DNA of 64,000 nt, taken from NCBI RefSeq assembly GCF_010731855.1, contig NZ_AP022620.1:2604001-2668000 (forward strand). The letters are read 5' to 3'. Both the position numbers and the translations under genes were made by a program. The notes beneath the pieces are model-generated. The model did no database searches. It saw only the letters and a list, made by a program, of their open reading frames with translations, and was not told the origin of the DNA. Position 1 is the stretch's first letter. Each line of letters starts with the position of its first letter. Shown here piece by piece: positions 1 to 16,718 of the stretch. This DNA comes from Mycolicibacterium anyangense (GTDB taxonomy: Bacteria > Actinomycetota > Actinomycetes > Mycobacteriales > Mycobacteriaceae).

Positions 1-816
1 GAGATCCGCATCGCCGAAGACGACCTGAGCTGATTTCCCACCTAGCTCCAAGCTCACCCGCGTCAGGTGCTCCATGGCCGACCGGCCTACGGTGATGCCG
101 GTTGCAGTGGATCCGGTGAAAGCAATCCGGTCGACACCCGGGTGGGCCGCCAACGCGGCACCCGTCGCCGGTCCCCATCCGGTGACCACGTTGACCGTCC
201 CGGGTGGGAAGCCGGCCTCGCCGAACAATTCGGCGAACGCCAACGTCGACGTCGGCGTGTGATCACTCGGCTTGATGACGAAGGTACATCCGGCTGCCAA
301 ACCGGCGGCGAGCTTCCAGGTGAGCAGCAACAACGGCGAATTCCAGGGAGTGATCGCCCCGACCACGCCTACCGGTTCATTGCGGGTGTAGACAAGGTAA
401 TTCGTCTTGTCGGTGGGGATGACTTCGCCCTGTTGTTTGTCGGCCAGGCCTGCGAAGTAGTAGAAGTACTCGGGCAGCGCGCGCATCTGCCCCACCATCT
501 CGCGCAGCAGCTTTCCGCCGTCCCGAACCTCGAGTTCGGCGAGGTACTCAGCATCCCGCTCGATCAATTCGCCGACCCGGTGCAGTAGCTTCCCGCGTGC
601 TGTGGCGGTCAACCGGCCCCACTCCCCTTGCAGGGCAGCCCGGGCGGCGGCCACGGCGCGGTCGATGTCGGCACCAGTTCCGTCGGGAACACGGGCCCAA
701 GCCTTTCCGGTGAATGGATCGACGCTGTCGTAGGTGGCCCCCGACTCTGCCGGCACCCGTTGGCCGTCGATGACAAGGGAATACTCGATGAGCGACTCGG
801 CCGTACTGGTCGTCAT
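1..816 (-). CDS. Aldehyde dehydrogenase, C-terminal part beyond the window
   Basis: NAD(P)-dependent oxidation of an aldehyde to the acid, which the adjacent CoA ligase could then activate. The 272 codons visible give the N-terminal half of the ALDH fold. They include the cofactor-site run ending GAITPWNSPL, the FTGST nucleotide-binding motif, and the general-base motif LELGGKSAQVV near the cut. The catalytic cysteine would lie to the left of the window. The start is ATG at 816, overlapping the stop of the upstream CoA ligase (ATGA), so the two are translationally coupled. It is the last visible gene of the leftward Rieske dioxygenase operon. The family is certain and the substrate unknown; an aryl or alkyl aldehyde of the pathway is an inference. 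Confidence 0.9.
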   Translation of the reverse strand, partial: MTTSTAESLIEYSLVIDGQRVPAESGATYDSVDPFTGKAWARVPDGTGADIDRAVAAARAALQGEWGRLTATARGKLLHRVGELIERDAEYLAELEVRDGGKLLREMVGQMRALPEYFYYFAGLADKQQGEVIPTDKTNYLVYTRNEPVGVVGAITPWNSPLLLLTWKLAAGLAAGCTFVIKPSDHTPTSTLAFAELFGEAGFPPGTVNVVTGWGPATGAALAAHPGVDRIAFTGSTATGITVGRSAMEHLTRVSLELGGKSAQVVFGDADL

Positions 817-2399
817 CTCAACCCTCCGGATACCCCGTTGATCAATTCGTCAGCAATCTTGTTCTTGAGAATCTTTCCCGATGGGCCCAGCGGGAACTCG
901 GCGCGATACTCGAACCGATGGGGTTGCTTGTATCCGGCGAGTTCCGTGCGGCACAACAGCGCAAGTTCGGCGGTCAGTTGATCGAAATCGGACACCGATG
1001 TCCGAGCGATCACCACCGCCACCGGGGTCTCACCCCACTCCACGTTGGGAACTCCCACGACTGCGACGTGCTCGACGTCACGGTGGTGAGCGATCACCCG
1101 CTCGATCTCGGCCGGGTAGACATTGAAGCCACCGGAGATGATCATGTCCCGCTTGCGTCCAGTGACGTGGAGGTAGTTCTCTTCGTCCAGGAATCCGAGG
1201 TCTCCGGTTCGCAAACCGTCGGGGCGGAATGTCTCAGTGCTCTGTTCGGGCAGGTTCCAGTAGCCAATGGCGTTGGCCGGACTCTGCACCACGATCTCCC
1301 CGATCTCCCCGTGCCCCAATTCCTTTCCGGAATCGTCCACAATCCGGATGGCACACATCGGCGTCTCCTGCCCACACGACGTTGCGATCGACGTCCGGCC
1401 CGCGACGATGTCGCGGTGATCCTGCGGGGTCAGGATGGTGGCCTGTCCCCCACATTCGGTCGAGCCGTACCTCTGTTGAAGATCGCAACCCAGCAAGTCC
1501 ATGGCGCGCTGGGCCAGCCCGGGAGGCACCGGAGCCGAACCATAGGAGATCCGCCGCAAGCTCGAGAGATCCCTTTGGGGTCCCTCCTCGAGAATGGCCA
1601 ATGTCCGGTGCAGCATGGTGGGGATGAACGTGGTGAAGGTAATTCCGCTGCGTTCGATTTCGTCGATCACCGCTTCAGGATCAAAGCGCTGGTGAATCAC
1701 CATCGTCTGGCCGAGGTACAGCCAGGATGCGGTGCGCACCATGCCACCAGCGGTGAAGAACGGCGTGGTCGCGAGCATGACGTCCGACCGGTTCGCCTCG
1801 GTGACAAGGTTGGTGTCGACCGCTTGGTGCAATAGTGCACGGTGCGAATGCATGACGCCCTTGGCCCGGCCGGTGGTCCCGCTCGTGTAGATGATCACCG
1901 CGAGATCGTCCGGCGCAATGTCGGATTTCGGACGCTCCGCCGAAGCTGCGGCCAGCGCTGTGTCGTAGCCTGTCGCGCCCTGCAGCGCGCCGGCTGCCCC
2001 GCCGATCACCAGGACCGGGCCCAGGCCGGTCAGCAGGTCCCCGAACTTCTCGACATGATCGGCGTGGATGATGGCACCGCGGGCACCCGAGTCGTCCCGC
2101 AGGTGAGCGACTTCGTCGGCCGCCAGCCGAACGTTGACCGGAGCGGTGACCAGACCTGCCTTCGCCAGACCGAAGGAGATCTCCGGCCATTCGATGCAGT
2201 TGCGGGCAATGACCAGTACCCGATCTCCTACCGAAAGTCCGCTGCCGACAAGGTGATTGGCTAGACGGCGCGCCCGCTCGTCGACCTGCGCCCAGGAGAG
2301 AACCCGGTCACCGTCGACGAGCGCCCGCTTGTTCGGGTACCGCCGTGCGTTATTGGCCGAAATGTCGCCGAGAAGCATGTGTGATCGCCTGACGCTCAA
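813..2399 (-). CDS. Acyl-CoA ligase (AMP-binding, ANL superfamily), ipfF-like position
   Basis: ATP-dependent activation of a carboxylic acid to its CoA thioester through an acyl-adenylate. The P-loop YTSGTTGRAKG is at residues 171-181, the hinge and A8 region (GRKRDMIISGGFNVYP) at about 415-430, and the C-terminal lysine in GPSGK near 509. The length of 528 aa is normal for the family. The start is probably TTG at 2399, overlapping the stop of the dioxygenase beta gene; ATG at 2378 (MLLGDIS) is an alternative. Its place beside Rieske alpha/beta, DUF35 and thiolase-like genes matches the ipf ibuprofen cluster, where the ligase makes the aryl-acyl-CoA that is then dioxygenated. The true acid is not known. 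Confidence 0.92.
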   Translation of the reverse strand: MSVRRSHMLLGDISANNARRYPNKRALVDGDRVLSWAQVDERARRLANHLVGSGLSVGDRVLVIARNCIEWPEISFGLAKAGLVTAPVNVRLAADEVAHLRDDSGARGAIIHADHVEKFGDLLTGLGPVLVIGGAAGALQGATGYDTALAAASAERPKSDIAPDDLAVIIYTSGTTGRAKGVMHSHRALLHQAVDTNLVTEANRSDVMLATTPFFTAGGMVRTASWLYLGQTMVIHQRFDPEAVIDEIERSGITFTTFIPTMLHRTLAILEEGPQRDLSSLRRISYGSAPVPPGLAQRAMDLLGCDLQQRYGSTECGGQATILTPQDHRDIVAGRTSIATSCGQETPMCAIRIVDDSGKELGHGEIGEIVVQSPANAIGYWNLPEQSTETFRPDGLRTGDLGFLDEENYLHVTGRKRDMIISGGFNVYPAEIERVIAHHRDVEHVAVVGVPNVEWGETPVAVVIARTSVSDFDQLTAELALLCRTELAGYKQPHRFEYRAEFPLGPSGKILKNKIADELINGVSGGLR

Positions 2400-2899
2400 A
2401 TCAGGAACGCCAATGTGTCGACCGGCCCGGCAGCATCGATGAGATGGACCACCTTACGCACCAACCGCAACCCACCGTCGCTCCTGCGGACGGTATGAAT
2501 TACCCGGCCAGCCCAGAAGCGCTGGCGGACACGATATTCGAACAGTGCGAAATTCGACTCGACAGTGACGGTGTCCAGCCCCTGGTCGACGACCTCGCTA
2601 TTGGACAGTAGTCGACGCATCACCGACGGAGGCGTCTGGGAATGCCGGCTGCCGCTGTTGAGCTGCGCGATCCGGCTCTTGATCCGCCGACGATTGTCGT
2701 TGATGTACGCCACGGTGGAACGTGGGTCGTCATTGGGGTGCATCGGCACTCGATACTCGGCGTCGTCGTCCCACAGTGCTTCCCAGTCCGAATAGCGGGC
2801 CTCGTCGGCCAACCGGGACTCGAGATAGAGGAACGCCAAGATGTCCGAGTCGGGTAGCGGACGGATCGCCAACTGCTGTCCCTCACTGATCACACTCAT
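2396..2899 (-). CDS. Ring-hydroxylating dioxygenase, beta (small) subunit
   Basis: Structural small subunit of a Rieske non-haem iron dioxygenase, with the cone-shaped SnoaL/NTF2-like fold. The protein has about 167 aa, the usual length. It shows the family pattern of an early acidic helix (LADEARYSDWEALWDDDAEYRVP), a central NNRRRIKSRIA segment and the late FWAGRVIHTVRR strand. The start is ATG at 2899, overlapping the alpha-subunit stop (ATGA); an upstream in-frame extension to 2926 would sit inside the alpha gene and is not preferred. It forms an alpha/beta pair with the gene just upstream. No ferredoxin or reductase gene lies in this operon, so electrons must come from elsewhere; the FprB-like protein at 21935 is one candidate. 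Confidence 0.92.
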   Translation of the reverse strand: MSVISEGQQLAIRPLPDSDILAFLYLESRLADEARYSDWEALWDDDAEYRVPMHPNDDPRSTVAYINDNRRRIKSRIAQLNSGSRHSQTPPSVMRRLLSNSEVVDQGLDTVTVESNFALFEYRVRQRFWAGRVIHTVRRSDGGLRLVRKVVHLIDAAGPVDTLAFLI

Positions 2900-4185
2900 G
2901 CCTGTCCTCCCACAACCGCCGCCCAACGCTGGTAGAAGCCGCGTTGGGGCGTCTCAGCGCTCTTGTCGTTGTTGATCACGCCTGATTCATTGGTGATATC
3001 GCTGCCGGCTCCTCTGGCCAGGACCAGCCACTCCGGAGATTCCGCAGCCAAGCCCGCTTGGTTGCGCATCCCGATCTCGCCGTCATCGGCAATCAGAAAG
3101 CCCGCCGGCCCCATGGCACCTTCACACCGGCGCAGCGTGCGCTCGTTGAGCTCGGGCTGCCCGGGGATTTGAACAGCGGTGGTGTAAGCCACCGTCCGGT
3201 CGGGGGCCTGCGGCTCGACGAACATCACGTTCATCTCGGCAAGGAACAGGTTCGGCCAGATCAAGGTGTGCGGCGGTCCGATCACCAGGGATTCGTGTGT
3301 CTTCTCCGGACCGTAGGCATTCTCCAACGCTTCGGCATAACCTCCGAGCTTCTCCCTCGGGATGCGGCCGTACCAAACGAATTCCTCGTCGAGTCGGCGG
3401 TACTCCTCGCTGTAGTCGATCTCCGAGTGGCCATCCCCCAGGTCGCGAACCAGCACGCTGGTCTTCTCGGGCACGTGGGACACCTTGGCCGGGCGGATCG
3501 ATTCGTACACCGAGATGTGGGTGAACAGCGCGTGGTAGCCGTCGACGTTGTTCTCGACCACCATCTTCCAGTTGGCATGGTGTAGATGCTTCATCCAGGT
3601 CGACGCGAATTCGATCTCACCTGTCGGCGAGAGGTTCAGCAGACGGTCGATGGCCCCGGTGGCCTTGCCAAGGTGTTGGATCAGCGAAACGCCCTCGGGG
3701 GCAAGTGAAGCGAAAATGAATCCGCCGTAGCTGTCGACCCGTGGTGCAGCCGCCATGCCAAGGTCACTGCGGACCTCGTCGAAGGCTTCACCGTAGGCCT
3801 CACGCATCGGCACGCCACGAAGCTCACCGGTGTTGGAGAAGGTCCAACCGTGGTACGGGCACCGAAAGGACGTCGCGTTGCCCATCTCGGCCGTGCACAG
3901 CTTGGCAGCACGGTGGGTGCAACGATTGAGCAGCACCCGAACCTGGTTGTCCTTGCTGCGCACCACCACCACGGGGTCCGAACCGATCATCCGGGTCAGG
4001 TAATCGCCCGGCTGCTTGATCTCACTCTCGTGGCCGACATATACCCAGCCGGTCTTGAAGATGGTGTCCATCTCCCGCCGGTAGACCTCCGGCGAGGTGT
4101 AGACGGAGCCGTGCACCCGGTCCGGTCGAACCAGCTCAGATACATCGAAACCGTCTGTGGCGCTTTCCTTCTCAGCAGTTGTCAC
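2896..4185 (-). CDS. Rieske ring-hydroxylating dioxygenase, alpha (large) subunit
   Basis: Catalytic subunit that inserts O2 into an aromatic ring to give a cis-dihydrodiol. The Rieske [2Fe-2S] ligands are C89 and H91 (CTH) with C109 and H112 (CPYH). The mononuclear iron site is H218 and H223 in VDGYHALFTH, with a late aspartate at 367 or 368 (IADDGE) and the bridging D215. The start chosen is GTG at 4185, giving 429 aa, because a perfect GGAGG lies about 7 nt upstream; the longer frame reaching 4230 runs into the DUF35 gene. The neighbours (DUF35, thiolase-like, CoA ligase) suggest the substrate is an aryl-acyl-CoA, as in the ipfAB system. That substrate class is inference. Confidence 0.95.
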   Translation of the reverse strand: MTTAEKESATDGFDVSELVRPDRVHGSVYTSPEVYRREMDTIFKTGWVYVGHESEIKQPGDYLTRMIGSDPVVVVRSKDNQVRVLLNRCTHRAAKLCTAEMGNATSFRCPYHGWTFSNTGELRGVPMREAYGEAFDEVRSDLGMAAAPRVDSYGGFIFASLAPEGVSLIQHLGKATGAIDRLLNLSPTGEIEFASTWMKHLHHANWKMVVENNVDGYHALFTHISVYESIRPAKVSHVPEKTSVLVRDLGDGHSEIDYSEEYRRLDEEFVWYGRIPREKLGGYAEALENAYGPEKTHESLVIGPPHTLIWPNLFLAEMNVMFVEPQAPDRTVAYTTAVQIPGQPELNERTLRRCEGAMGPAGFLIADDGEIGMRNQAGLAAESPEWLVLARGAGSDITNESGVINNDKSAETPQRGFYQRWAAVVGGQA

Positions 4186-4186
4186 G

Positions 4187-4630
4187 CTAATCCTCCGAAC
4201 TTTGAACTGCAGGAATGTGGGCGTCACCAAGCGTGCGGAAGGCGATGTGCACGCTGGTGCCGATCGGGGGTACGGACGCTGAGGATGACGTTGTCGTCAT
4301 CACCAGGCGGTGTCCGCTGTCCAGCTCGACGTCGATGACGGGGTAGGGCATTTCGGCACGAACCAGCCCCGGCTCCCGCCGGTGGACGGTGGTCCACGAG
4401 TGCACAACACCCCGGAGTTCGACGCTGGTCCATTCGCGCCCGAAGGCGCCACAGCCGTCGCAGACGGTCTGCTCGAGTTCAAGTGGCAGCCGGCATCGGC
4501 TGCAGAATGGCAACACCAGCTCACCACGCCGGGCCGCCTCATACAGCGGTTGCAGCGGATCGAGATCGCCGCCGGGGGCAAGCTGGCTGTTCAGCAACCA
4601 GTCCTCGGTCATACTGCGAATATCGGTCAC
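4187..4630 (-). CDS. DUF35 OB-fold protein with zinc ribbon
   Basis: Small partner protein (147 aa) of thiolase-like enzymes. The N-terminal rubredoxin-like zinc ribbon has C43-x2-C46 and C57-x2-C60, followed by an OB-fold (VHSWTTVHR, MPYPVIDVEL). In known pairs such as ChsH2-DUF35/Ltp2 and IpfE/IpfD the DUF35 domain is needed for activity or stability of the thiolase-like aldolase. The start is GTG at 4630, overlapping the stop of the thiolase-like gene just upstream (GTGA), so the two subunits are likely made in equal amounts. The stop (TAG) falls between the Shine-Dalgarno and the GTG of the Rieske alpha gene. The ipf-type pairing is strongly supported by gene order. Confidence 0.9.
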   Translation of the reverse strand: MTDIRSMTEDWLLNSQLAPGGDLDPLQPLYEAARRGELVLPFCSRCRLPLELEQTVCDGCGAFGREWTSVELRGVVHSWTTVHRREPGLVRAEMPYPVIDVELDSGHRLVMTTTSSSASVPPIGTSVHIAFRTLGDAHIPAVQSSED

Positions 4631-5775
4631 GCTGCACGTTCCAGAATCAGCGCTGCATGGTGATCGAGGCGGCCGCCAACCCCGCCGACCAGAGCGGTTA
4701 CCGCATCTTCGACCTGTCGTGCGCCACCGGACCCACGGAGCTGAATGACGGCTTCGGCCAGCGGGGTCATGCCCTGCAGATAAAAGCCCGCCAGCTGGCC
4801 ACCGCCGGTGTTGGTCGGTAGCGCTCCACCCGGACCGATCTCGCCGGCGGCGACGAACTCACCAACTGGCACCGAGTCGGTGAGCCGGTATTCGTCAAGA
4901 AGCATCAGCGTCACAACCGAGAACGGGTCGTAGAGTTCGACGACGTCGAGGTCGGCCCGCTGGATTCCGGCCTCGTGCAGGGCATCGTCGAGCGCGCGCC
5001 GCCCGCCGCCGAACCACGACTCGGCGCCGGCGCGCCTGCGACGCACCGGGTGATAGCGACCCGCGCCGCGTACCCGTAGCCGAGTCAGGCCCAATCCGGG
5101 ATCACCAGTCAGGACAATGGCAACTGCCCCGTTGACCGGTCGCGCACAGTCGACGCGCCGCAGCGGTTCGGCGATCATCGGACTGGCAAGGTACTTCTCG
5201 CGGTCCATCGGCTCACGATCGACCGCGTGCGGATTACCCGACGCCCATCGGCGTGCGGTCATCGCCACCGTTGCGATGGCCTCAGGATCAGTACCCGACA
5301 CGTGCAACCACCGCTGTGCCATCAAGGCATAGGTCGGTACCGACCCCAGCAGACCAGAAGCCCGTTCGAACCCGCGTAGACCTGACTTTCCGCCACTGTG
5401 GGCATACAACGAACCTGCGCCCTTGCCATCCACCAGGGGTGCGTCAGCGAAGACGCACATCACCGTCGAGGCCTCACCGGTGGAGATGGCATGCCGCGCG
5501 CGCTGAATCATCGCGATTGCGGTTGTGCCCTTGATCTCGACGTGCTCCAGCAGACGAAGGTCACCGAACCCGCCCTGCCCGGCAAGCGCGACCCCCAGCC
5601 GCTCCGGCCGAACCCCCTGCGACGACCCCACCAGCAGGCCGTCGATGTCCGACCGCGTGCAGCCCGCATCGGCCAATGCGGCACCAATGGCACGGCAGGC
5701 GAGAACCACCGCGGAGTCGCCACCCCGCAGCGACATCTCGGTCATCCCGAGACCGACCAGATCGGTGCTTCTCAT
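4627..5775 (-). CDS. Thiolase-like (SCP-x/lipid-transfer type) protein lacking the nucleophilic Cys; probable retro-aldolase
   Basis: The 382 aa have the non-decarboxylating thiolase fold of the lipid-transfer (SCP-x/Ltp) group. Where a true thiolase has the nucleophilic cysteine this protein reads VEIKGTTA (residues 79-86), so classical thiolysis is unlikely. It keeps LYDPFS (Y282) and AGFYLQGM (Y332), positions where Ltp2-type aldolases are reported, as I recall, to use tyrosines. With its DUF35 partner encoded directly downstream it fits an enzyme that cleaves a beta-hydroxyacyl-CoA by retro-aldol chemistry, for example loss of an acyl-CoA side chain from a dioxygenated ring (IpfD role). 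It overlaps the upstream small gene by one base (TGATG). The family is clear; the reaction is inferred. Confidence 0.88.
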   Translation of the reverse strand: MRSTDLVGLGMTEMSLRGGDSAVVLACRAIGAALADAGCTRSDIDGLLVGSSQGVRPERLGVALAGQGGFGDLRLLEHVEIKGTTAIAMIQRARHAISTGEASTVMCVFADAPLVDGKGAGSLYAHSGGKSGLRGFERASGLLGSVPTYALMAQRWLHVSGTDPEAIATVAMTARRWASGNPHAVDREPMDREKYLASPMIAEPLRRVDCARPVNGAVAIVLTGDPGLGLTRLRVRGAGRYHPVRRRRAGAESWFGGGRRALDDALHEAGIQRADLDVVELYDPFSVVTLMLLDEYRLTDSVPVGEFVAAGEIGPGGALPTNTGGGQLAGFYLQGMTPLAEAVIQLRGSGGARQVEDAVTALVGGVGGRLDHHAALILERAA

Positions 5776-6056
5776 CAGTGGGCCGGCCCATGATCGGAGC
5801 GGTAGGGGCCCACCCGGAGCCAGCCGTCACGATCCTCCTGGGTCGCCTCGGTCAGGCTCACCAACTCCAAGGGGCACAAGTAGATGTGCGAATCGCTTTC
5901 GAGATCCTGGATCAACAGCCGGGGCCCGTTGCCCTCCAGGTCGAGGATCAACCGTACCGAGGCGAACTCGTTCAGCAGGTCTGCGAGGCGCCGCTGACCA
6001 CCGTGCCCGTGCCGGGCCGACGGGGTGTCTGCTGTCCCGTGATCCTGGATTGCCAT
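5775..6056 (-). CDS. Small conserved hypothetical protein, first gene of the dioxygenase operon
   Basis: About 93 aa from ATG 6056. I do not know its biochemical role. The stretch LLNEFASVRLILDLEGNGPR followed by a predicted beta-rich segment and LCPLELVSLTE resembles short actinobacterial proteins found next to ring-hydroxylating dioxygenase genes that are sometimes labelled dihydrodiol dehydrogenase. It is far too short to be a dehydrogenase, so that label should not be copied. Alternative starts exist upstream (GTG at 6116); neither has a good Shine-Dalgarno. It ends in a one-base overlap with the thiolase-like gene, so it belongs to the operon. It could be an accessory or assembly factor for the dioxygenase; that is a guess. 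Confidence 0.6.
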   Translation of the reverse strand: MAIQDHGTADTPSARHGHGGQRRLADLLNEFASVRLILDLEGNGPRLLIQDLESDSHIYLCPLELVSLTEATQEDRDGWLRVGPYRSDHGPAH

Positions 6057-6302: not shown

Positions 6303-7184
6303 ATGATTGATACCGAGAACTATCGGAGCATCTGGATGTACCTGAAGGAGGTCGCATTCCGGCAGGGATTCGTCGACCTCCCGGTCAACGGCGCGTCGGT
6401 GCGCACCCGGTACGCCGACGCCGGAGATCCGGATGCTCCCCCCGTCATCCTGTTGCACGGAACCGGCGGCCACTGGGAGACGTTCGCCGCCAACCTCGGG
6501 GTGCTCTCGAAGTCCTTCCGCTGTCTGGCGGTCGACATGGTCGGCAACGGATTCTCCGACAAGCCGGACTTCGACTACGAGATTCCCATCTACGTCGAGC
6601 ATGTCCTGAACCTGATGGAGCACTTCGGTGTGGCGAAGGCCCACTTCGTCGGGATGTCCCTCGGCGCCTGGGTTACCGCACGCATCGCCGCCGACCACCC
6701 GGAACGCGTTGACCGGGTGATTCTGATGTCCCCCGCGGGCAAGGAAGCTGCCGCAGCGAACATGGCCCGGATCCGCGCAGAGCGCACCAAGGCTGTCAAC
6801 GACCCCACCTGGGAGTCACTGCATGCGGTCTTCGCCCATCTCATCGCCGACGAAGCCAATCGACTGCCCGACCTCATCGGCTTGCGGCGCTCGATCTACG
6901 AGCGCGCCGACACCCGGGAAACCATCGACCACCTGCTCATCCTGCAGGACCCCGACGCGCGGGACCGCAACCTCATTCCCGAGTCTCAGTGGACGAGCAT
7001 CAAAGCCCCGGTGATGGTGGTGACCTCCGGCCGCGACCATGGCGTCTACCAAGACACAGCCACCACCATCGCCGGGCTCATCCCGAACGCGGAGACCTTC
7101 GAAATGCCCGATGTCCGCCACTGGCCGCACTTCGAGGATCCGGCGGCATTCAATGTCGCTGCCGTGGAGTTCCTCAACCGATGA
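6303..7184 (+). CDS. Alpha/beta hydrolase, meta-cleavage product hydrolase type
   Basis: Likely carbon-carbon bond hydrolase acting on a vinylogous 1,5-diketone from meta ring cleavage, as in MhpC, BphD and HsaD. The 293 aa show an oxyanion motif HGTGGHWE (52-59), nucleophile elbow GMSLGAW with S119, acid D245 (TSGRDHGVY) and base H273 ([10 protein letters not shown]). The HWPHFE pattern after the histidine is typical of this clan. It is the first gene of a rightward operon with hydratase, aldolase and extradiol dioxygenase genes, and its stop overlaps the next start (ATGA). A GGAAGG-like ribosome site precedes the ATG. A plain ester hydrolase cannot be excluded, but the context favours the C-C hydrolase. 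Confidence 0.9.
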
Positions 7185-8005
7185 GCCGGCCACGTGGTCG
7201 CGACATAGCGCTGCTTGCTCAGCGTCTCCATTCCGCGGAGCGGAGTCGTACGCCGATCCGGCAACTCTCGCTGGACTACCCTGAGATGACGGTTGACGAC
7301 GCCTATGCGGTGCAGCGAGAACTGGTTGCCCTCAAGATCGCCGACGGCCGGGTGGCAAAGGGCCACAAGATCGGCCTCACGTCAAAAGTCATGCAGCGCG
7401 CCGTATCGATCGACGAGCCGGATTACGGCGTGCTGTTCGACGACATGTTCTTCGATGCCGGCGGACACGTTCCCGTCGACCGGTTCATCCGCCCGAGGAT
7501 CGAAGTCGAGCTCGCCTTCATCCTGGGCGAGCCGATCACCGGTCCCGATACGACCGTGTTCGACGTGTTGCGGGCAACGGAGTACGTCGTCCCGGCCCTG
7601 GAGATCCTTGACGCACGGGTGCAGATGTCGGATCCCGAGACGGGGCACCTGCGCACGATCGTCGACACGATTGCTGACAACGCCGCGAATGCCGGACTCG
7701 TACTGGGCGGACGGGTGGTCCGTCCGATGGACGTCGACCTGCGCTGGGTGGCAGCGCTGCTGATGCGAAACGGGACGGTCGAAGAGTCCGGTGTTGCCGC
7801 CGCGGTGCTCAACCACCCCGCCAACGGGGTGGCATGGCTGGCCAATCGGCTTGCGCCGCATGGCGATACGCTGAGTCAGGGTGAGGTCATCCTGTCCGGG
7901 TCGTTCACCAAGCCGGTTTTCGCCGAGCCGGGCGATACCTTCGTTGCCGACTACGGCTCATTGGGAACCGTGTCGGTGACCTTCGATCGGGAGCCCGAGC
8001 GGTGA
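7181..8005 (+). CDS. 2-hydroxydienoate / 2-oxo-ene-oate hydratase (MhpD/HpaH family)
   Basis: Adds water to 2-hydroxypenta-2,4-dienoate or the C7 dioate analogue (2-oxohept-3-ene-1,7-dioate), giving a 4-hydroxy-2-oxo acid. The protein has 274 aa from ATG 7181, which overlaps the hydrolase stop. Family signatures are [22 protein letters not shown] and the acidic metal-site run [11 protein letters not shown] (two glutamates), then ALEILDAR and the late [14 protein letters not shown]. The longer frame opening at 6989 is only an upstream extension inside the hydrolase gene. The next gene, an HpaI-type aldolase, would cleave its product. HpaH-like and MhpD-like substrates cannot be separated by eye. 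Confidence 0.92.
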
Positions 8006-8769
8006 TCAACACCTGGGTCAGCCGAATCACCTCCGGACTGCCGCAGTACGGGCTGTGGGCGGCCTCCGGCAGCAGCTACATCACCGAAATCTGCGCCGGC
8101 TCAGGGGCCGACTGGTTACTGGTGGACCAGGAACACGTACCCAACGACGTGCGCAGTGTCTTGAGCCAGCTCCAGACGCTGGCCGCCTACCCCGACGTGG
8201 AAGTGGTCGTCCGGCCGCCGGCCGGCGACGCGGTGTACATCAAGCAGTTGCTCGACATCGGTGTGCAGAATCTGATCATCCCGATGGTCGACACCCCGGA
8301 GCAAGCCGCACACGTGGTCGCGGCAACACGCTATCCGCCTCGCGGTATCCGCGGCGTCGGTAGCGCGCTGGCGCGGGCATCCCGCTGGAATCGCGTTCCC
8401 GACTATCTGGCGACGGCGGACGACGGTCTTTCGGTAACAGTGCAGGTGGAATCCGTTGAGGGCCTGGCGAATCTCAGCCAGATCGCGTCGGTCGACGGAG
8501 TGGACGCAGTGTTCATCGGCCCCGCCGACCTCGCCGCCTCGTTGGGGCGACTCGGCCAGCCCGAGCACGCCGACGTGGTGAACCGCATCGAAGGGGCACT
8601 CGCAGAGATCGTCGCGCAGGGCAAGCCGGCAGGTGTGAACGCGTTCAACCGGCAAATCGCCGAACGGTACCTCGCCGCAGGTGCGACCTTCGTGCTGGTA
8701 GGTGCGGATGTCGCCCTGGTGGCTCGCGGCGCCGAAGCAGTTGTCTCGCAATACAAGGGAGCCCAATGA
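8002..8769 (+). CDS. HpcH/HpaI-type class II aldolase
   Basis: Metal-dependent pyruvate aldolase that splits a 4-hydroxy-2-oxo acid into pyruvate and an aldehyde. The 255 aa match HpaI closely: H45 in [10 protein letters not shown]71 in VVRPP, metal ligands E150 (VQVES) and D176 ([10 protein letters not shown]), and the signature [19 protein letters not shown]. The start is GTG at 8002, overlapping the hydratase stop (GTGA). In mhp-type pathways this step is usually done by MhpE with the acylating dehydrogenase MhpF; here a single HpaI-type enzyme takes that place, so a free aldehyde (or semialdehyde) should be released. The ALDH genes of the cluster could remove it. Confidence 0.93.
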
Positions 8770-9914
8770 CCTCCATCGCAATCGCCGGCGCGGCGCTCTC
8801 CGACGTCGGCAAGGTCGACGACAAGAGCCCCTATCAGTTGATCGCGCAGGCGAGCCGGCGTGCACTGGCCCAGGCGGGCCTCACCTTCGCCGATGTCGAC
8901 GGGCTAGCCTCAACCGGCCAAGGCACCCTGCCGCCGGTCGATGTCGGGGAATACCTGGGCATTCGACCCAAGTGGGTCGACTCGACCGCCGTCGGCGGCG
9001 CCACCTGGGAGGTGATGGCGTCCCACGCAGTCGACGCGATCGCCGCCGGCCACGCCGAGGTGGTCCTGCTCACCTACGGCTCGACCGCAAGGGCGGACCT
9101 TCGCAAGGGCCTCCGGTCCGCGGGTATCAACTGGGGTGCACGTGGTCCACTGCAATGGGAGGCGCCCTACGGGCACACGCTGATCTCGAAGTACGCGATG
9201 GCCGCCCGACGACACATGCACGAGTACGGCACGACGATCGAACAACTCGCCGAAGTTGCCGTGTCGGCACGATTCAATGCTGCCGACAACCCGGAGGCCT
9301 ACTACCGGGATCCGATCACCATCGGCGACGTCCTTTCGGGACCGATGATCGCCGACCCGTTCACCAAGCTGCACTGCTGTATTCGCAGCGACGGTGGGGC
9401 CGCGGTCGTACTGGTGCGAGGTGACCGAGCCAAGGATCTTCCCTCCGATCCGGTGTGGGTTCTCGGCTCGGCCGAGGCCACTTCGCACATGTTGACTTCA
9501 CAGTGGGAGGACATGACAGTGGGCCCCGCCGCGGTCAGCGGCCCATTGGCGTTCCAGCGAGCCGGGATTCAGCCCGCCGATGTCGACGTCGCCGAGATCT
9601 ACGACGCGTTCACCTACATGCTGCTGGTGACGCTCGAGGATCTGGGCTTCTGCGCGAAGGGTGAAGGGGGTCCCTTTGTGGCGGAGGGCTCCTTGCGCCT
9701 CGGTGGGCGCCTCCCGACCAACACCGACGGAGGTGGGCTGTCGGCATGCCATCCCGGCCAGCGAGGCCTGTTCCTGTTGGTGGAGGCTTGCCGACAGCTG
9801 CGCGGTGAAGCCGGCCCTCGCCAGGTTCCTGGCGCCAAGATCGCCTGCGTGAGCGGAACCGGCGGCTGGTTCTGCTCCAGCGGCACCGTCATCCTCGGAG
9901 CAGAGGAGCCCTGA
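8766..9914 (+). CDS. Second thiolase-like (SCP-x/lipid-transfer type) protein without nucleophilic Cys
   Basis: The 382 aa belong to the same broad group as the gene at 4627 but to a different branch. The position of the reactive cysteine reads TAVGGATWE (74-82), so it too lacks the nucleophile. It has LHCCIRSDGGAAVV (202-215), EIYDAF with Y279, and keeps the late histidine loop GGLSACHPGQRG (H329). It overlaps the aldolase gene (ATGA) and abuts the CoA ligase start with no gap, so it belongs to the meta-cleavage operon. No DUF35 gene is adjacent; the nearest are at 4187 and 16722. It may act on a CoA ester left after ring cleavage or on side-chain removal. The reaction is unproven. Confidence 0.85.
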   Translation: MTSIAIAGAALSDVGKVDDKSPYQLIAQASRRALAQAGLTFADVDGLASTGQGTLPPVDVGEYLGIRPKWVDSTAVGGATWEVMASHAVDAIAAGHAEVVLLTYGSTARADLRKGLRSAGINWGARGPLQWEAPYGHTLISKYAMAARRHMHEYGTTIEQLAEVAVSARFNAADNPEAYYRDPITIGDVLSGPMIADPFTKLHCCIRSDGGAAVVLVRGDRAKDLPSDPVWVLGSAEATSHMLTSQWEDMTVGPAAVSGPLAFQRAGIQPADVDVAEIYDAFTYMLLVTLEDLGFCAKGEGGPFVAEGSLRLGGRLPTNTDGGGLSACHPGQRGLFLLVEACRQLRGEAGPRQVPGAKIACVSGTGGWFCSSGTVILGAEEP

Positions 9915-11381
9915 ATGACCGTGCTGCCGGATACCTTCGCCAACACCCGGATGGCGTTGCAGGCGGCCGCACACCACCACGGTGATCGCGAAGCCTACGT
10001 AGAGCCGGACGCACGAATGACGTTCGTGCAGTGGGTGAGTCGAGCGGAGTCAGCTGCAGCCGAGTTCGCCCGACTCGGCGTCCAAAAGGGTGACATCGTC
10101 CTGCTGTGGCTTCCGTCGGGCATCGACTACGCGGTCTGTTATGCCGGAGCCGCGATGATCGGCGCAGTGACGGCAGGTCTCAATCCCCGACTCGGCCCTA
10201 CCGAGATCAAAGCCGTCATCGATCAAGCGAACCCCGCACTGATAGTCGCTGACGAGCAGCTGGCTGCGATCACGGCCGGGGATACCGCAGTGGTATCCCG
10301 GTCATCGCTGCACGAACTCTATCGGACCAAGCGCCAGGCGCCCATGGTTGACGTCGGCCGCACTGACCCGGTCGCGGTGTTGTTCAGCAGCGGGACAACG
10401 GGAGTCCCCAAGGGTGCGGTCTTCGATGCCGACAATCTGGCCGCCGGCGCACATGCCGCCGGTGTGATGAGCGCTCCCTACGACCGTCGACTGACATCCA
10501 CACCGTTCGCGCACGCCGGCTACATGTTCAAGCTTTGGGACCAACTGCTCTGGGGTACCACGCTGGTGGTCCCGCCTGCCCCCTGGTCAGCAGAAGGCAT
10601 GGCGAAAGTCCTCGTCGAGGAGCGCATCACCGTCGCCGGCGCGGTGCCGACTCAGTGGGCCAAGCTGCTCGAGGTCGACGGGATAGACCGCAACGCGTTG
10701 AAAGATCTGCGCCTCGGAGTGGTCGCCAGTGCGCCGGCTGCACCGGAACTCGTCGCGAATGTGGCCGACCGGATCGGCGTCCCGCTGGTGGTGCGTTATG
10801 CCATGACCGAGTGCCCGACGATCAGTGGCACTGAACCGGGTGACCCGCCAGAAGTGCAATTCCACACCGTCGGCAGGCCTGCGCCGGGCATGCAGGTGCG
10901 CGTCCGCGACGGCATCGTCGAGGTGAGTGGGCCCTGCGTCATGCGCGGGTATTGGCAACGTCCCGAACTCACCGCTTCCGTCCTGCAGAACGGGTGGCTG
11001 CGCACCGGCGACATAGGCGGGATCCGCGACGACGGCAACGTGGTCATCACCGGCCGCAGCGACGACACCTACATCCGTGGTGGGTTCAATGTCCAACCCG
11101 CCGAGGTGGAACAGGTGTTGTTGGCGCATCCCGGCGTCACCGACGCCGTTGTGGTCGGCCACCGAACTCCGGTGATCGGCGAGATCGGTGTTGCGTTCGT
11201 GGCCGCGGGCGCGACACCGCCGTCGCTGGCGGAACTGCGCGCCTGGGTATCGGCACGGCTGAGCGACTACAAAGCTCCCGACCGACTGGTCGTTGTCGAC
11301 GAGATTCCCCGAACGGCCCTACTCAAGCCGGACCGCAAGGAACTGCGCCGGCGACTGTCCGCAGAACTCGCAACCGATTAG
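9915..11381 (+). CDS. Acyl-CoA ligase (AMP-binding, ANL superfamily)
   Basis: Second CoA ligase of the island, 488 aa. The P-loop VLFSSGTTGVPKG lies near residues 155-167, with the aromatic gate region PTQWAKLLEV, the YAMTECPTISG segment, the hinge TGRSDDTYIRGGFNVQP and a C-terminal lysine in RTALLKPDRK. The ATG at 9915 follows the previous stop directly. It is shorter than the ligase at 813, so it probably has another substrate. In this operon it could activate a fragment from ring cleavage or the parent acid. The FACL3/FACL13-like features are general to mycobacteria and do not fix the substrate. Confidence 0.92.
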   Translation: MTVLPDTFANTRMALQAAAHHHGDREAYVEPDARMTFVQWVSRAESAAAEFARLGVQKGDIVLLWLPSGIDYAVCYAGAAMIGAVTAGLNPRLGPTEIKAVIDQANPALIVADEQLAAITAGDTAVVSRSSLHELYRTKRQAPMVDVGRTDPVAVLFSSGTTGVPKGAVFDADNLAAGAHAAGVMSAPYDRRLTSTPFAHAGYMFKLWDQLLWGTTLVVPPAPWSAEGMAKVLVEERITVAGAVPTQWAKLLEVDGIDRNALKDLRLGVVASAPAAPELVANVADRIGVPLVVRYAMTECPTISGTEPGDPPEVQFHTVGRPAPGMQVRVRDGIVEVSGPCVMRGYWQRPELTASVLQNGWLRTGDIGGIRDDGNVVITGRSDDTYIRGGFNVQPAEVEQVLLAHPGVTDAVVVGHRTPVIGEIGVAFVAAGATPPSLAELRAWVSARLSDYKAPDRLVVVDEIPRTALLKPDRKELRRRLSAELATD

Positions 11382-11394: not shown

Positions 11395-12258
11395 ATGACG
11401 TCAATCCCCAACCGTCTCGTGGTGTGCGCCAGTCACAGCCCGGGCAAGGAACGAGATGTGACTGAGCAGTTCGGTACCGAATTCCGATCAGGATTGCGCA
11501 GCGCGGCTGCCATCGTCGAGGAGTTCGACCCCGAACTGGTGGTTCTTTTCGGTGGCGATCACCGTCGCGCATTCCGCCATGTCGTGCCCACATTCGGGGT
11601 GGCTCTGTCCGCATCGATCACCGAACACGGCTCTCGCCCCACCGGCGACGTGACCGTCCCCGGTGGCCAGTCCCGTTCCCTGGCCGAGTATCTCCTCGCC
11701 CGGGATTTCGACATTGCGGTCTGCCGGGATATCGGACTGGATCATGCATTCGCCCAGCCGCTGTACGACCTGCTGGGTGGCATCGACATCAAGCCGGTGA
11801 TCCCCATTGCGGTCAACTGCGCGACAGCTCCCCTGCCCACGGCGGCACGAGTCGCCCAATTCGGTTCAGCTGTCGGCGGGTATCTCGACACCCTCGATGA
11901 GAGAGTCCTGGTCATCGGAACGGGGGGGCTGTCCCACTCGCCCCCGAGTTTGGAGGTGGACGCCTACGAGATCAGCGACGACGTGCGCGCGCGGCTCATT
12001 TCGGAGGGAATGGCCGAGGCCCGCACGAAGATCCGGCCCGACTGGGATCGGCAGGTGCTTGCGGCGTTCGCCGATGCCGATCAGCCGGCATTACTGAAGC
12101 TGGTAGACAATGCGCATGCAGCCGCCGGCGCTGGGGCCAATGAAGTGCGAACCTGGCTGGCAGCAGCAGCCGCTGGAGGTAGCCATCCACTGCATCCGGT
12201 TGTCTACCAACCTGTTCCAGAATGGATCACCGGCATGGCGGTGGCCGTCTCACACTGA
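11395..12258 (+). CDS. Class III extradiol ring-cleavage dioxygenase (MhpB-like)
   Basis: Fe(II) extradiol dioxygenase of the MhpB (2,3-dihydroxyphenylpropionate 1,2-dioxygenase) type, opening a catechol by meta cleavage. The 287 aa track MhpB along the whole length: ASHSPG, PELVVLFGGDHRRAF (H56), the catalytic pair H117 (LDHAFAQPL) and H181 (GTGGLSHSPP), then EVRTWLAAAAAGG and PVPEWITGM. The start is ATG at 11395 with ACGGAG just upstream; an in-frame extension to 11293 lies in the ligase gene. It is the last gene of the operon and converges with the TetR gene 17 bp away. A 3-substituted catechol with a carboxyalkyl chain would be the family-typical substrate. Confidence 0.94.
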   Translation: MTSIPNRLVVCASHSPGKERDVTEQFGTEFRSGLRSAAAIVEEFDPELVVLFGGDHRRAFRHVVPTFGVALSASITEHGSRPTGDVTVPGGQSRSLAEYLLARDFDIAVCRDIGLDHAFAQPLYDLLGGIDIKPVIPIAVNCATAPLPTAARVAQFGSAVGGYLDTLDERVLVIGTGGLSHSPPSLEVDAYEISDDVRARLISEGMAEARTKIRPDWDRQVLAAFADADQPALLKLVDNAHAAAGAGANEVRTWLAAAAAGGSHPLHPVVYQPVPEWITGMAVAVSH

Positions 12259-12275: not shown

Positions 12276-13682
12276 TCAGCCGTCGAGTTTGCCCGATGGC
12301 GAATCGGTAGACTCGACTGCGGGCCCGCTCTGTTCGGACATCGCCATCGTGGACCCGTAGAAGCCGCGCTCGATGCACACCGTGATCAGCTCGGCGAACC
12401 ACTTTCGGTGAACGGGCGCACCCCAACCAGGACCCACATGGGGCAGATACGTCACGAGCGCACGCACGATCAGCGCACAAATCGTCGGGTCGATCGGATA
12501 GCGGAGTGGCCGTCGACTCAGCATGGCGGAAATGGCACCGTCGATCAGCGCCAGCGAATCCGCGCCATAGGCCAGCACGGGCTCGTTATCAGTGGTCGCA
12601 TCCTCCCAGGCGTCGATACATCCCGAGTACAGATCTGTGAACTCGATGTAGCGCAAGAGGCATTCCTGCAATTCGGCGTTTGAGTCGCAGGGGTCGACAT
12701 CGGTAATCTGCTCGGCCAGATGACTTGCCGCAAGGTGCGTTTGGGCGGTAGCGGCGGCCAACAAGTCCGCCTTGTCACTGAAGTACTTGTAGAAGGTACC
12801 GCGGGCGACTCCGGCCGCTTCGATGATGTCGTCGACGCTGGTACGCCGGTAACCTCTGGCACGGAATTGGTTGAGGCCCGAGGCGATGAGTGTTTCGACG
12901 GTCTTGACGGCTCGCTTGCTCAAGCCTTCGACACGGTCGTCGAACGAGGCCAGCTGCTGACTGGGCGACGAGCGTTTGGGAGCGCGGTGGGAATCGGCGC
13001 TCGCCTCAACACTCGGAGTAATGCCGATACTCGCCAGCGCCTCGTGCGGTGTCTCCGGAAATAGGAACAGCTGCAGGAAGACAGTCAGAGCATCGATGGC
13101 AGGCGTCGCTTCGCGTCCGTAGGCGAATTGGCTGTGCATCAGCAGGTTGAGGCGGTGCACCAGCACGGTCATCACCACTGCGGCGACCAGGGGGGTCACG
13201 CCCTCGATCCCCGAACTCACCAGCCGCTCCGCGATCCGGTCGTGGTAGCTACGCAACCGCTCCTGGAACCGGTGCCGGGCTCGGACGTCAGCGGCGGCGA
13301 TCGCGGTCCACTGGAAGAAGAGCGTCTCGTACTTCTCGAACACCCACCGCCACTCGCCCAGCCACCAATTGAGATTGTCCACCCCGACTGCATCAGAACC
13401 GAGAGGACCGATTCTGCGCACCACCCGCATCATCGCGTTTCCGCAGTCATCGAGCAGCTCGAGGAATATCTCGTCCTTGCCAGAGAAATACTGGTAGAGC
13501 GTCGCCCGCGAGATGTCGGCGGCCTTGGCGATCGCATCGACCGAGGTGTCGAAGTACCCCAGTTCGCCGAAAAGCCTCAGCGAGACGTCGGTGATCCGCT
13601 GGCGTGTGTGCACACCACGGGCACCGACGTCCGGACTGGACGGCCCGTAGCTCGCCCGGCGGGTAATGGGTGGATCTGTCAT
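12276..13682 (-). CDS. Tandem double-domain TetR family regulator
   Basis: A 468-aa protein with two complete TetR units. The first DNA-binding domain is at about 26-76 (VDAIAKAADISRATLYQYFS) followed by a helical ligand domain to about 225. After a polar linker (230-250) the second DNA-binding domain is at about 258-308 (VDDIIEAAGVARGTFYKYFS) with its own C-terminal domain. Both recognition helices look intact. Normal TetR proteins of about 200 aa work as dimers, so this chain may act as a built-in pseudo-dimer or bridge two operators. It lies 18 bp downstream of the MaoC gene and converges with the meta-cleavage operon, so it is the best candidate local regulator. The effector is unknown, perhaps a CoA ester. 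Confidence 0.9.
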   Translation of the reverse strand: MTDPPITRRASYGPSSPDVGARGVHTRQRITDVSLRLFGELGYFDTSVDAIAKAADISRATLYQYFSGKDEIFLELLDDCGNAMMRVVRRIGPLGSDAVGVDNLNWWLGEWRWVFEKYETLFFQWTAIAAADVRARHRFQERLRSYHDRIAERLVSSGIEGVTPLVAAVVMTVLVHRLNLLMHSQFAYGREATPAIDALTVFLQLFLFPETPHEALASIGITPSVEASADSHRAPKRSSPSQQLASFDDRVEGLSKRAVKTVETLIASGLNQFRARGYRRTSVDDIIEAAGVARGTFYKYFSDKADLLAAATAQTHLAASHLAEQITDVDPCDSNAELQECLLRYIEFTDLYSGCIDAWEDATTDNEPVLAYGADSLALIDGAISAMLSRRPLRYPIDPTICALIVRALVTYLPHVGPGWGAPVHRKWFAELITVCIERGFYGSTMAMSEQSGPAVESTDSPSGKLDG

Positions 13683-14596: not shown

Positions 14597-14784
14597 GTAA
14601 CCAATAATGTCAGATATCGGACGGCATTCAAGTACCCACCCTCTTAGTACGCAGGTAGGAGGCATTGTTTTCTGTCGACACTGCTGCCAGAATCGACAGA
14701 CGACGCACGTGAGCGAACCGGTCCATGACCGATGTCGACATCTTCCGCACCACCTGGTCGGAATCATCACCGAGGAAGCACAAA
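14597..14784. promoter_or_regulatory. Divergent promoter region with an 8-bp inverted repeat
   Basis: This 188-bp gap lies between the FAS1-like gene and the alcohol dehydrogenase gene. A perfect inverted repeat TCTGTCGA (14671-14678) and TCGACAGA (14693-14700), with 14 bp between, is a good operator candidate. The 13-mer CAATAATGTCAGA at 14602-14614 is repeated exactly at 18934-18946. The right part leads into GAGGAAG, the ribosome site of the dehydrogenase. Confidence 0.5.
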
Positions 14785-15927
14785 ATGCAAACACAGGCCG
14801 CCGTGTTGTGGGAACGCAACAGCCCCTGGTCAATCGAGACAGTGGAACTCGACGCACCAAAACCACCCGAGGTTCTCGTCGAGTTGTACGCCTCCGGCAT
14901 CTGCCACTCCGATGACCACGTTGTCACCGGCGACATGCCGATGCGATTGCCCTGCATCGGCGGACATGAGGGCGCAGGAGTGGTGAAGGCCGTCGGGGAC
15001 CACGTCTCGTGGCTGCAGCCGGGAGACCACGTGGTGTTCAGCTTCGTTCCGTCATGCGGACGCTGCCCGTCGTGTTCCACCGGTCACCAGAGCCTGTGCG
15101 ACCTCGGAGCGAAGATCTACGCCGGCATGCAGATCACTGACGGCACGTCACGGCATCACATCGGCGACCACGACCTATCGCTGGCCTGCTCAGTGGGGTC
15201 GTTTGCACACCACACCGTGGTACACGAAGCCAGCTGCGTGAAGATCGACAAGACCTATCCGCTGGATCGGGCCTGCCTGCTGGGATGCGGTTTCATCACC
15301 GGTTGGGGCTCAGCGGTTTACGCCGCCGACATCCGGCCGGGCCACACCGTGGTCGTCGCCGGATTCGGCGGGATCGGGGGGGCTGCCGTGCAGGGCGCCC
15401 GGCTCGCCGGCGCTCGCACGATCACGGTCATCGAACCGTCCGAGGAGAAGCGCGCGGCAGCCGTCAAGCTGGGCGCCACCCATACGGCGGCAGACTGGAG
15501 TGAGGCCAAAACCGTTGTCGCGGAGGCTACCTGGGACCGTGGCGCGGATCGCTTCATCTGCGCCATGGGCGTTGGAGAGGGCAGGCTCATCGCGGACGCA
15601 CTCGCGATGACAGCCAAGCGCGGCAGGCTCGTCGTCACCAACATCCATCCGATGCTCGAGCGTGAGATCCGGGCGAATCTCATGGATCTGACCCTCACCG
15701 AGAAGCAGATTGTCGGTTCGCTGTACGGTTCAGGCAACCCGCGGGCCGACATTCCCAAGGTCCTGGAGCTGTCCAGCTCCGGCCAGGTCGACCTCGACGC
15801 CATGGTGACCCGCACCTACCCGCTCGAGAAGGTCAATGACGGCTTCGCTGATCTACGGGCTGGAGCCAACATTCGCGGAGTGCTGCTCTACCCGCCGGCC
15901 GCCGACTCCACGGCAGGCGTGCGATGA
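14785..15927 (+). CDS. Zinc alcohol dehydrogenase, NDMA-dependent (mycofactocin-associated) type
   Basis: Medium-chain zinc dehydrogenase, 380 aa from ATG 14785, which has GAGGAAG upstream. Catalytic zinc ligands are C40 (GICHSDDH), H61-E62 (GGHEGAG) and C168 (LLGCGFITGWGSA); structural zinc ligands are C91, C94, C97 and C105. The Rossmann motif GFGGIG is at 193-198. The opening KxxAAVLWE-like sequence and GICHSDDHVVTGDMP match the NDMA-dependent alcohol dehydrogenases, whose bound nicotinamide is recycled through mycofactocin instead of free NAD. It would oxidise a primary alcohol of the side chain to the aldehyde. The stop overlaps the next start (ATGA). Subfamily assignment is from remembered sequence similarity. 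Confidence 0.88.
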   Translation: MQTQAAVLWERNSPWSIETVELDAPKPPEVLVELYASGICHSDDHVVTGDMPMRLPCIGGHEGAGVVKAVGDHVSWLQPGDHVVFSFVPSCGRCPSCSTGHQSLCDLGAKIYAGMQITDGTSRHHIGDHDLSLACSVGSFAHHTVVHEASCVKIDKTYPLDRACLLGCGFITGWGSAVYAADIRPGHTVVVAGFGGIGGAAVQGARLAGARTITVIEPSEEKRAAAVKLGATHTAADWSEAKTVVAEATWDRGADRFICAMGVGEGRLIADALAMTAKRGRLVVTNIHPMLEREIRANLMDLTLTEKQIVGSLYGSGNPRADIPKVLELSSSGQVDLDAMVTRTYPLEKVNDGFADLRAGANIRGVLLYPPAADSTAGVR

Positions 15928-16718
15928 ACGCTGTCGTGCACGGTGTCAGCGGCGGGGTCATGACCATCACCCTCGACCGTCCCGATGCGGCCAACGCGCT
16001 GCGGCCTGCGGACCGGGACGAATTGATCGCATTGTTCACCGCCGCGCACAACGACGATGAAGTACGTGTCGTCGTCTTGCGGGCCAACGGCAAGCACTTC
16101 TGTGCGGGCGCCGATGTAGCCTCGTTGGCAGATCGACGGCAGCGGGTCGAGAAAAGAGTTCTCGACCCGATGCGCAGGATCATGAGTGGCGCACAGCAAC
16201 TGGTTGCCAGTGTCCTGGACTGCTCCAAGCCGGTGATCGTCGTTGTCCAGGGTGCCGCCACCGGCATCGGAGCACACCTCGCCTATGCCGCCGATCTGGT
16301 GATCGCTACCGACAACGCTTATTTTGCCGAGTCTTTCATCAAACGCGGGCTGGTCGTCGACGGCGGGGGCTGCTACTTGTTGCCGCGACGTATCGGCGTG
16401 CAAAAGGCCAAGGAGATGATGTTCTTCGGCGCGAAGCTGTCCGCTCAGGAAGCCCTCACGCTCGGCTTGGCCAACAGGGTCGTGAGCGCCGACGAACTCG
16501 ACGAAGCCGTCCACACCTTCGCCGATGAGCTAGCCTGCGCACCAACGAGCGCGATCTCGCTCATCAAGCGCCTACTCAACGATTCCCTGGACACCGACCG
16601 AAACGGCGCGTTCGTCACCGAAGCGATGGCGCAAGAGATCCAGTCCTATTCACACGACTCCGGCGAGGGTGTTCGCGCTTTCGTCGAGAAGCGACCGACG
16701 AATTTTGCGGGTCACTGA
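15924..16718 (+). CDS. Enoyl-CoA hydratase/isomerase (crotonase) family protein
   Basis: 264 aa crotonase fold. The oxyanion segments are HFCAGADVASLA (58-69) and VQGAATGIGAHLA (108-120). At the second catalytic glutamate position the sequence reads LVVDGGG (Asp 146), common in crotonases with isomerase, hydrolase or lyase activity, so simple hydration is not certain. The start overlaps the alcohol dehydrogenase stop (ATGA) and a DUF35 gene follows 3 bp later. It probably takes part in beta-oxidation of a CoA-linked side chain or ring fragment. Confidence 0.9.
   Translation: MNAVVHGVSGGVMTITLDRPDAANALRPADRDELIALFTAAHNDDEVRVVVLRANGKHFCAGADVASLADRRQRVEKRVLDPMRRIMSGAQQLVASVLDCSKPVIVVVQGAATGIGAHLAYAADLVIATDNAYFAESFIKRGLVVDGGGCYLLPRRIGVQKAKEMMFFGAKLSAQEALTLGLANRVVSADELDEAVHTFADELACAPTSAISLIKRLLNDSLDTDRNGAFVTEAMAQEIQSYSHDSGEGVRAFVEKRPTNFAGH

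Follow-up and report, generated by a model that had tools for sequence, protein, structure and literature searches.

An ipf-like gene module for predicted aromatic side-chain removal in Mycolicibacterium anyangense and other actinobacteria

Does the genome of Mycolicibacterium anyangense encode a coenzyme A (CoA)-dependent removal of side chains from aromatic rings, of the type described for the ipf genes of ibuprofen-degrading sphingomonads? The question is raised by a gene cluster at the start of the window, by which we mean the whole 64,000-nucleotide stretch analyzed here (contig NZ_AP022620.1, positions 2604001 to 2668000, in a genome consisting of one contig of 5.70 Mb). Our analysis indicates that the cluster is quite likely an actinobacterial branch of ipf-type CoA-dependent aromatic side-chain removal, located within a larger catabolic island. 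The gene content, gene order, protein families, catalytic residues, phylogeny and co-inheritance described below are all sequence-based, and the reactions and substrates are predictions drawn from them.

The module and its putative retro-aldolase

The module lies on the minus strand in the order small protein, IpfD, IpfE, oxygenase alpha, oxygenase beta, ligase and aldehyde dehydrogenase (ALDH), with the adjacent five-function core complete. The first gene encodes a small protein of 93 amino acids (5775 to 6056, with an ATG start and a possible GTG at 6116). It is followed by genes for an IpfD-like thiolase-fold protein, predicted to be a retro-aldolase (4627 to 5775, Thiolase_C_1), its IpfE-like DUF35/OB-fold partner (4187 to 4630, OB_ChsH2_C), the IpfA-like alpha subunit (about 2896 to 4185, Rieske and Ring_hydroxyl_A) and IpfB-like beta subunit (about 2396 to 2899, Ring_hydroxyl_B) of a Rieske oxygenase, and an IpfF-like AMP-forming CoA ligase (813 to 2399, AMP-binding, starting at TTG 2399 or ATG 2378). 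The DUF35 protein was not matched by the Pfam zinc-ribbon model, although a CxxC...CxxC pair is present in its alignment. The last gene enters the window with the first 272 residues of the ALDH (1 to 816, Aldedh) and is completed upstream in the flanking locus L008 (13326-14816); none of the 25 matches listed for the complete ALDH reached its curated cut-off. At the DNA level, the junctions read TGATG between the small protein and IpfD, GTGA between IpfD and IpfE, and ATGA both between alpha and beta and between ligase and ALDH. Between IpfE and alpha, TAG is followed by GTG after one base, and the beta/ligase junction reads TTGA if the TTG start of the ligase is real, the ligase otherwise beginning at ATG 2378. 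Genes therefore overlap at four of the six junctions, probably at five (the fifth depending on that TTG), and the sixth is the one-base gap. Thus, the domain scans and the reading of the junctions confirmed the coupled run of CoA ligase, dioxygenase beta and alpha, DUF35 and thiolase-like genes which a preliminary description of this stretch had proposed. The extra ALDH and small protein that it listed are present as well, the ALDH, and hence the operon, extending past the window start.

The same five functions are encoded by ipfABDEF of Rhizorhabdus wittichii MPO218 and Sphingomonas Ibu-2 (available part of PMC9195938), with homologous alpha, beta and IpfD proteins and the same pair of tyrosines in IpfD. 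The comparison of the five proteins that the preliminary description had proposed gave 27-46% identity to those of MPO218 (plasmid pIBU218, locus L013), with values of 37% for alpha, 46% for beta, 42% for IpfD and 33% for the ligase. The two systems differ in gene order, which is IpfD-IpfE-alpha-beta-ligase in the window and alpha-beta-IpfD-IpfE-ligase in ipf, and the window adds the small protein and the ALDH and has CxxC pairs in its DUF35 protein. Their lower pathways also differ, the window carrying MhpB-type, hydrolase, HpaH and HpaI-like enzymes where ipf has IpfL, of the VOC type, and IpfM, a semialdehyde dehydrogenase.

The closest PDB match of the IpfD-like protein was 6ok1, TcLtp2, and its Y282 and Y332 aligned with Y294 and Y344 of that enzyme. 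According to the available part of PMC12329534, Tyr294, within the motif YDHF, is the base and Tyr344 the acid of TcLtp2. We aligned 62 IpfD rows of more than 330 residues, counting the window twice (itself and as L093) and leaving out the host's own Ltp2. Y282, D283, F285 and Y332 were kept in all 62 rows, and cysteine was absent from the thiolase catalytic positions. For comparison, 51 rows were taken from second thiolases of these clusters, with that of the window entered twice, and from a small number of other thiolases; 50 of them had His and one had Glu at the position of the second tyrosine. The protein had been called cysteine-less, which holds for the thiolase catalytic positions; Cys 27, 39, 107 and 210 are present elsewhere. 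A partner that is a real thiolase had been named as a contrary outcome, and the retention of the Ltp2 aldolase tyrosines speaks against it. Since these invariant tyrosines align, a retro-aldol cleavage, as proposed for the ibuprofen pathway (available part of PMC9195938), is the best reading for the IpfD-like protein. The Ltp2-ChsH2(DUF35) steroid side-chain aldolase (6ok1; same part of PMC12329534) has in common with it the thiolase fold, the DUF35 partner and the catalytic tyrosine pair. The window protein differs from it in having YDPF where the aldolase has YDHF and a DUF35 partner that is a free protein, and a Rieske dioxygenase, not a hydratase, is predicted to supply its substrate.

Distribution and phylogeny of the module

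A scan of named genomes with the alpha profile returned 79 loci, part of which fall outside this clade. After addition of plasmid loci and of a related genome, G020, there were 63 separate places with an alpha at least 60% identical, some belonging to near-identical species. The order small protein-IpfD-IpfE-alpha-beta-ligase was present in 48 of them; the remaining 15 were partial, ten because the contig ends inside the module. Gene presence was scored in the 45 places spanning at least 20 kb, with a threshold of 45% identity across half of the query, lowered to 38% for the small protein and the acyl-CoA dehydrogenase ACADb. The small protein, beta and the hydrolase were found in all 45, the hydrolase always being divergent, while IpfD, IpfE, ALDH and HpaH were each found in 44, the ligase and HpaI each in 43, the second thiolase in 40, the second ligase in 39 and both acyl-CoA dehydrogenases in 39. 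Many of these genes were missing from one metagenome contig (L073). Loci came from Rhodococcus, Nocardia, Gordonia, Williamsia, Nocardioides, Frankia, Pseudonocardia and Streptomyces in addition to the host's genus. The module is widespread in actinobacteria and is not peculiar to this strain. Side-chain removal of the ipf type has so far come from a few sphingomonads as drug degradation, and its wide occurrence as an actinobacterial trait implies a common natural substrate; the module also represents a reservoir of candidate retro-aldolases and oxygenases for arylalkanoic acids.

This conservation bears on another explanation, in which the IpfD-like protein would be a normal thiolase, the genes serving beta-oxidation next to an unrelated ring dioxygenase. 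The thiolase fold and Pfam family would fit it, but the lack of cysteine at the catalytic positions, the invariant aldolase tyrosines and a gene order fixed in all places other than the partial ones make it very improbable.

Two observations were made along the way. The alpha gene of G020 (L153:10838-12125), one of three module-bearing genomes among 61 relatives, is split over two frames, reflecting either a sequencing error or decay. Moreover, flavin reductase and acyl-CoA-dehydrogenase-like genes occur near the module in 32 of 45 relatives each (L016-L067, mostly at 15.6-20.4 kb), and nothing in the window matched these at more than 33% identity.

An alpha tree was built from 52 rows hand-picked from 114 loci, omitting fragments and near copies and taking the higher-scoring of two alphas in one Ramlibacter locus. 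All 30 rows with an IpfD (above 400 bits) in their locus fell on one side of a branch (support 85/84), sister to an eight-row group without IpfD. Together these 38 rows (99/98) left out Escherichia coli HcaE and an alpha that was deposited under the name AntA. In this tree the oxygenase lies with IpfA-type alphas adjoined by IpfD/E, across a branch of moderate strength, and not with HcaE or the AntA-like enzyme. A grouping with benzoate or steroid oxygenases had been named as the contrary outcome. HcaE and the AntA-like alpha are excluded, and the window oxygenase scored far below the cut-offs of the NCBIfam benzoate, anthranilate and phenylpropionate models; the tree itself was built without an authenticated BenA or a steroid oxygenase. 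Overall, the tree, the IpfD tyrosines and the recurring gene order lend support to the ipf-like reading first put forward for this locus.

The sister alphas (41-42% identity) belong to CoA-linked Rieske clusters of R. opacus PD630, of the M. avium plasmid pP7a and of a locus at 483 kb in the host. These clusters share a CoA ligase and a small protein after beta, whereas in place of the IpfD/E aldolase they contain enoyl-CoA hydratases, a short-chain dehydrogenase/reductase (SDR) and thiolases, and they look like systems for CoA-linked ring dioxygenation. Sister clusters of Rieske alpha/beta and the small protein, mostly with a CoA ligase, were observed in the host at L100:9480-12753 (about 483-487 kb), in L106, L107 and L113, and also on plasmids of R. 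opacus PD630, Pseudonocardia and M. avium.

The sharing of five functions with ipfABDEF also brings up the possibility that the cluster serves ibuprofen degradation and was recently acquired from sphingomonads, and some actinobacteria are reported to remove ibuprofen (available part of PMC10004696). The identity to the MPO218 proteins, at just 27-46%, does not fit a recent transfer, and the actinobacterial alphas form their own 24-row clade (100/100), are spread over many genera and accompany a different lower pathway; we give this explanation very little credence. In the same part of that paper, ipfABDEF is listed for ten strains, all proteobacteria by name, and the ibuprofen-removing actinobacteria Patulibacter, Nocardioides and Rhodococcus use other or unreported pathways. 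Gene sets resembling ipf were found here on plasmids of Variovorax WDL1, Paraburkholderia BN5 and Nitratireductor, the last annotated without an OB gene, which the profile nevertheless detects. In a Phenylobacterium locus, IpfA/B/D/E of its own are accompanied by relatives of LigB (35%), the hydrolase, ALDH and HpaH. The claim that no mycobacterial example had been described stands for a clustered module, none being found in the literature searched, whose coverage leaves out most subscription papers. Scattered Ipf-like candidates, however, have been reported in M. aubagnense HPB1.1, where the IpfD/E matches are annotated IgrF/IgrD and lie about 58 genes from the oxygenase pair (available part of PMC11347016).

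Ring cleavage and the proposed pathway

The divergent meta-cleavage operon with an MhpB-type enzyme noted in the preliminary description was borne out. It starts on the plus strand with an alpha/beta hydrolase of the meta-cleavage-product type (6303 to 7184, HsaD-like but below the cut-off) and continues with HpaH, a 2-oxo-hept-4-ene-1,7-dioate hydratase (7181 to 8005; TIGR02312, 420.4 bits, above the cut-off of 351.5), and an HpaI-like aldolase (8002 to 8769). Then follow a PRK06158-subfamily thiolase-fold protein (8766 to 9914; NF004811, 442 bits, cut-off 421) with YDAF and a His at the second tyrosine position, a second AMP-forming CoA ligase (9915 to 11381, by family scan) and, as the sixth gene, LigB, a class III extradiol dioxygenase of the MhpB-type 3-carboxyethylcatechol 2,3-dioxygenase subfamily (11395 to 12258, ATG at 11395; NF009909, 437.3 bits, above the cut-off of 286). 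The set resembles the Mhp and Hpa meta-cleavage pathways in that its LigB passes the cut-off of an MhpB subfamily and its HpaH that of HpaH, and it is mixed, an MhpB-type cleaver and an HsaD-like hydrolase standing with HpaH and an HpaI-like aldolase.

To judge the link between ring cleavage and the module, 297 genomes of the genus were scanned. IpfD was found in 29 and LigB (E<=1e-90) in 30, with both in 28, IpfD only in one, LigB only in two and neither in 266 (Fisher p 8e-36, uncorrected for relatedness). The sole genome with IpfD only is 91% complete and 7% contaminated, and the two with LigB only are in 430 and 880 contigs. Among the 61 relatives, the close LigB form (at least 69% identity) was carried by exactly the three module-bearing genomes. 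On the plasmids of Rhodococcus sp. DK17 and R. erythropolis X5, enzymes 67% and 66% identical to LigB, annotated as 3-carboxyethylcatechol 2,3-dioxygenase, lie about 70-80 kb from the module. These results showed that the MhpB-type ring-cleaver is linked to the module by co-inheritance. On 23 contigs that carry both IpfD and LigB, the two are separated by 6.8 kb in the window and by 12.7-52.2 kb in the others, so that the co-inherited island takes a compact form in the window. In L012 (9235-9783) and in Frankia, Actinoallomurus and Streptosporangiaceae loci, a gene for a short VOC protein (66-75% identical) separates the divergent hydrolase from the small-protein gene, and it is possible that this protein is an alternative ring-cleaver in the deeper actinobacterial branches.

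Based on these assignments, the ligase at 813-2399 would make an aryl-acyl-CoA of the form Ar-CHR-CO-SCoA, with a single carbon between the ring and the carboxyl carbon, and the Rieske oxygenase would add O2 at the chain-bearing ring carbon and its neighbor, placing a new ring hydroxyl beta to the thioester. IpfD, held by its DUF35 partner, could then use Tyr282 as base and Tyr332 as acid in a retro-aldol cut that yields an acyl-CoA and a catechol. The catechol would be opened by the MhpB-type dioxygenase, the opened ring would be cut to pyruvate and an aldehyde by the hydrolase, HpaH and the HpaI-like aldolase, and the ALDH, the second ligase and the beta-oxidation genes would finish the remaining products. 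The HpaH score, being above the cut-off, points to a dienoate with a carboxyl group once the ring has been cleaved, and the class of this enzyme hints at a catechol with a second substituent that bears a carboxyl group.

Several points weigh against this predicted pathway. Neither a ferredoxin nor a reductase for the oxygenase (cf. IpfI and IpfH) was found among the scanned cluster genes, and a BN5 ferredoxin matched the host genome weakly at best, with 35 bits, at a place roughly 75 kb away. With no such partners nearby, we describe the module as working like ipf and not as identical with the ibuprofen pathway. The IpfE-like protein is just 27% identical to the MPO218 ibuprofen IpfE, and the histidine of YDHF (H296 in TcLtp2, where its replacement costs 14-fold according to the available part of that paper) is Pro here, being Pro in 56 and Ala in 6 of the 62 rows; because of this replacement the protein is not filed as an Ltp2 orthologue. 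The branch joining actinobacterial and proteobacterial alphas, at 85/84, lies below the 95/80 mark, and several outgroup rows of the tree are on long branches, some of which meet. In the lower pathway, the HpaI-like aldolase misses the TIGR02311 cut-off (330.0 bits against 368.8), and LigB stands in the operon only here, none of the 45 full-span relatives carrying it inside the fetched span.

The surrounding island and the small protein

Genes of the window and of L008 were matched in G020 (2159-2224 kb) and DK17 (526-615 kb). Common to all three are acyl-CoA dehydrogenases, MaoC, a TetR-like regulator, a zinc alcohol dehydrogenase (ADH), an enoyl-CoA hydratase, a DUF35/OB protein, an SDR, the ALDH and a cytochrome P450. 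The ADH, hydratase, DUF35/OB and SDR genes, identified by scans, lie at 14725 to 18067 on the plus strand, as does the P450 at 20606 to 21880 (54% identical in DK17 and 51% in G020). An Mce transporter operon with two MlaE permeases and Mce proteins occupies 32955 to 42260 on the minus strand (six of eight frames scanned and confirmed). It is common with G020 only, where counterparts are 54-71% identical; no match of at least 42% identity was found in the DK17 stretches compared. The P450, the ADH, the beta-oxidation genes and the Mce operon suggest a hydrophobic alkyl-aromatic parent compound, and this gene content also suggests that its chain may be shortened by beta-oxidation before the module acts.

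The same genes allow another assignment, in which the ring attacked by the module belongs to a large polycyclic lipid, terpenoid- or steroid-like, that is taken up via Mce, the same chemistry serving as one dismantling step. The Mce operon, P450 and ADH share the island, an acyl-CoA dehydrogenase pair stands near the cluster, with both members in 39 of 45 full-span relatives, and the protein nearest to IpfD in the PDB is a steroid aldolase. Against it, aromatic rings are the substrates of this class of Rieske alpha/beta enzymes, MhpB and HpaH are enzymes of single-ring catabolism, and the DK17 stretches compared gave no Mce match at the 42% level. We regard this assignment as rather unlikely.

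The small protein had no Pfam or NCBIfam match and no convincing PDB relative (best sequence match E 0.46), and its predicted structure was of middling confidence with no clear structural match. There are 1043 homologues at E<=0.001. We scanned 296 genomes of the class with a search profile of 46 rows, five picked from positions beside Rieske or IpfD genes and 41 comprising the window and sequence-search matches; 26 genomes yielded a total of 31 matches. Thirty of these loci were taken with about 1.5 kb on either side, and in all 30 a same-strand Rieske beta (21) or IpfD (9) stood beside the small protein; two of the loci are copies from the host that were already known, and in two others or among the same the beta was called weakly, at 33 and 37 bits. 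In the sister CoA-linked clusters, too, the gene comes after beta; the six proteobacterial ipf-like loci are without it. The small-protein family is tied to Rieske oxygenases. As a tentative proposal, the protein might be a previously unrecognized component of actinobacterial Rieske alpha/beta enzymes (a third subunit, an assembly factor or a CoA-thioester-handling partner), retained in modules for side-chain removal, in the sister clusters for CoA-linked ring dioxygenation and next to more distant Rieske oxygenases. The module would then be central to an actinobacterial pathway, widespread and so far undescribed, that acts on a natural hydrophobic alkyl-aromatic taken up through an Mce system. 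The co-inherited ring-cleaver and this Rieske-linked small protein make the pathway directly testable.

The small-protein family was also seen beside Rieske betas distant from that of the module (33-70 bits to the beta profile; L136-L151 except L142 and L148). Within the island, two open frames, at 17974-18999 (341 amino acids) and 25136-25828 (230 amino acids), are without a Pfam match, the first overlapping other frames and perhaps not being a gene. The regulator of 468 amino acids at 12276-13682 contains two TetR_N stretches in one chain, and the protein encoded at L008:3147-4673 likewise combines two GntR and two FCD stretches in a single chain.

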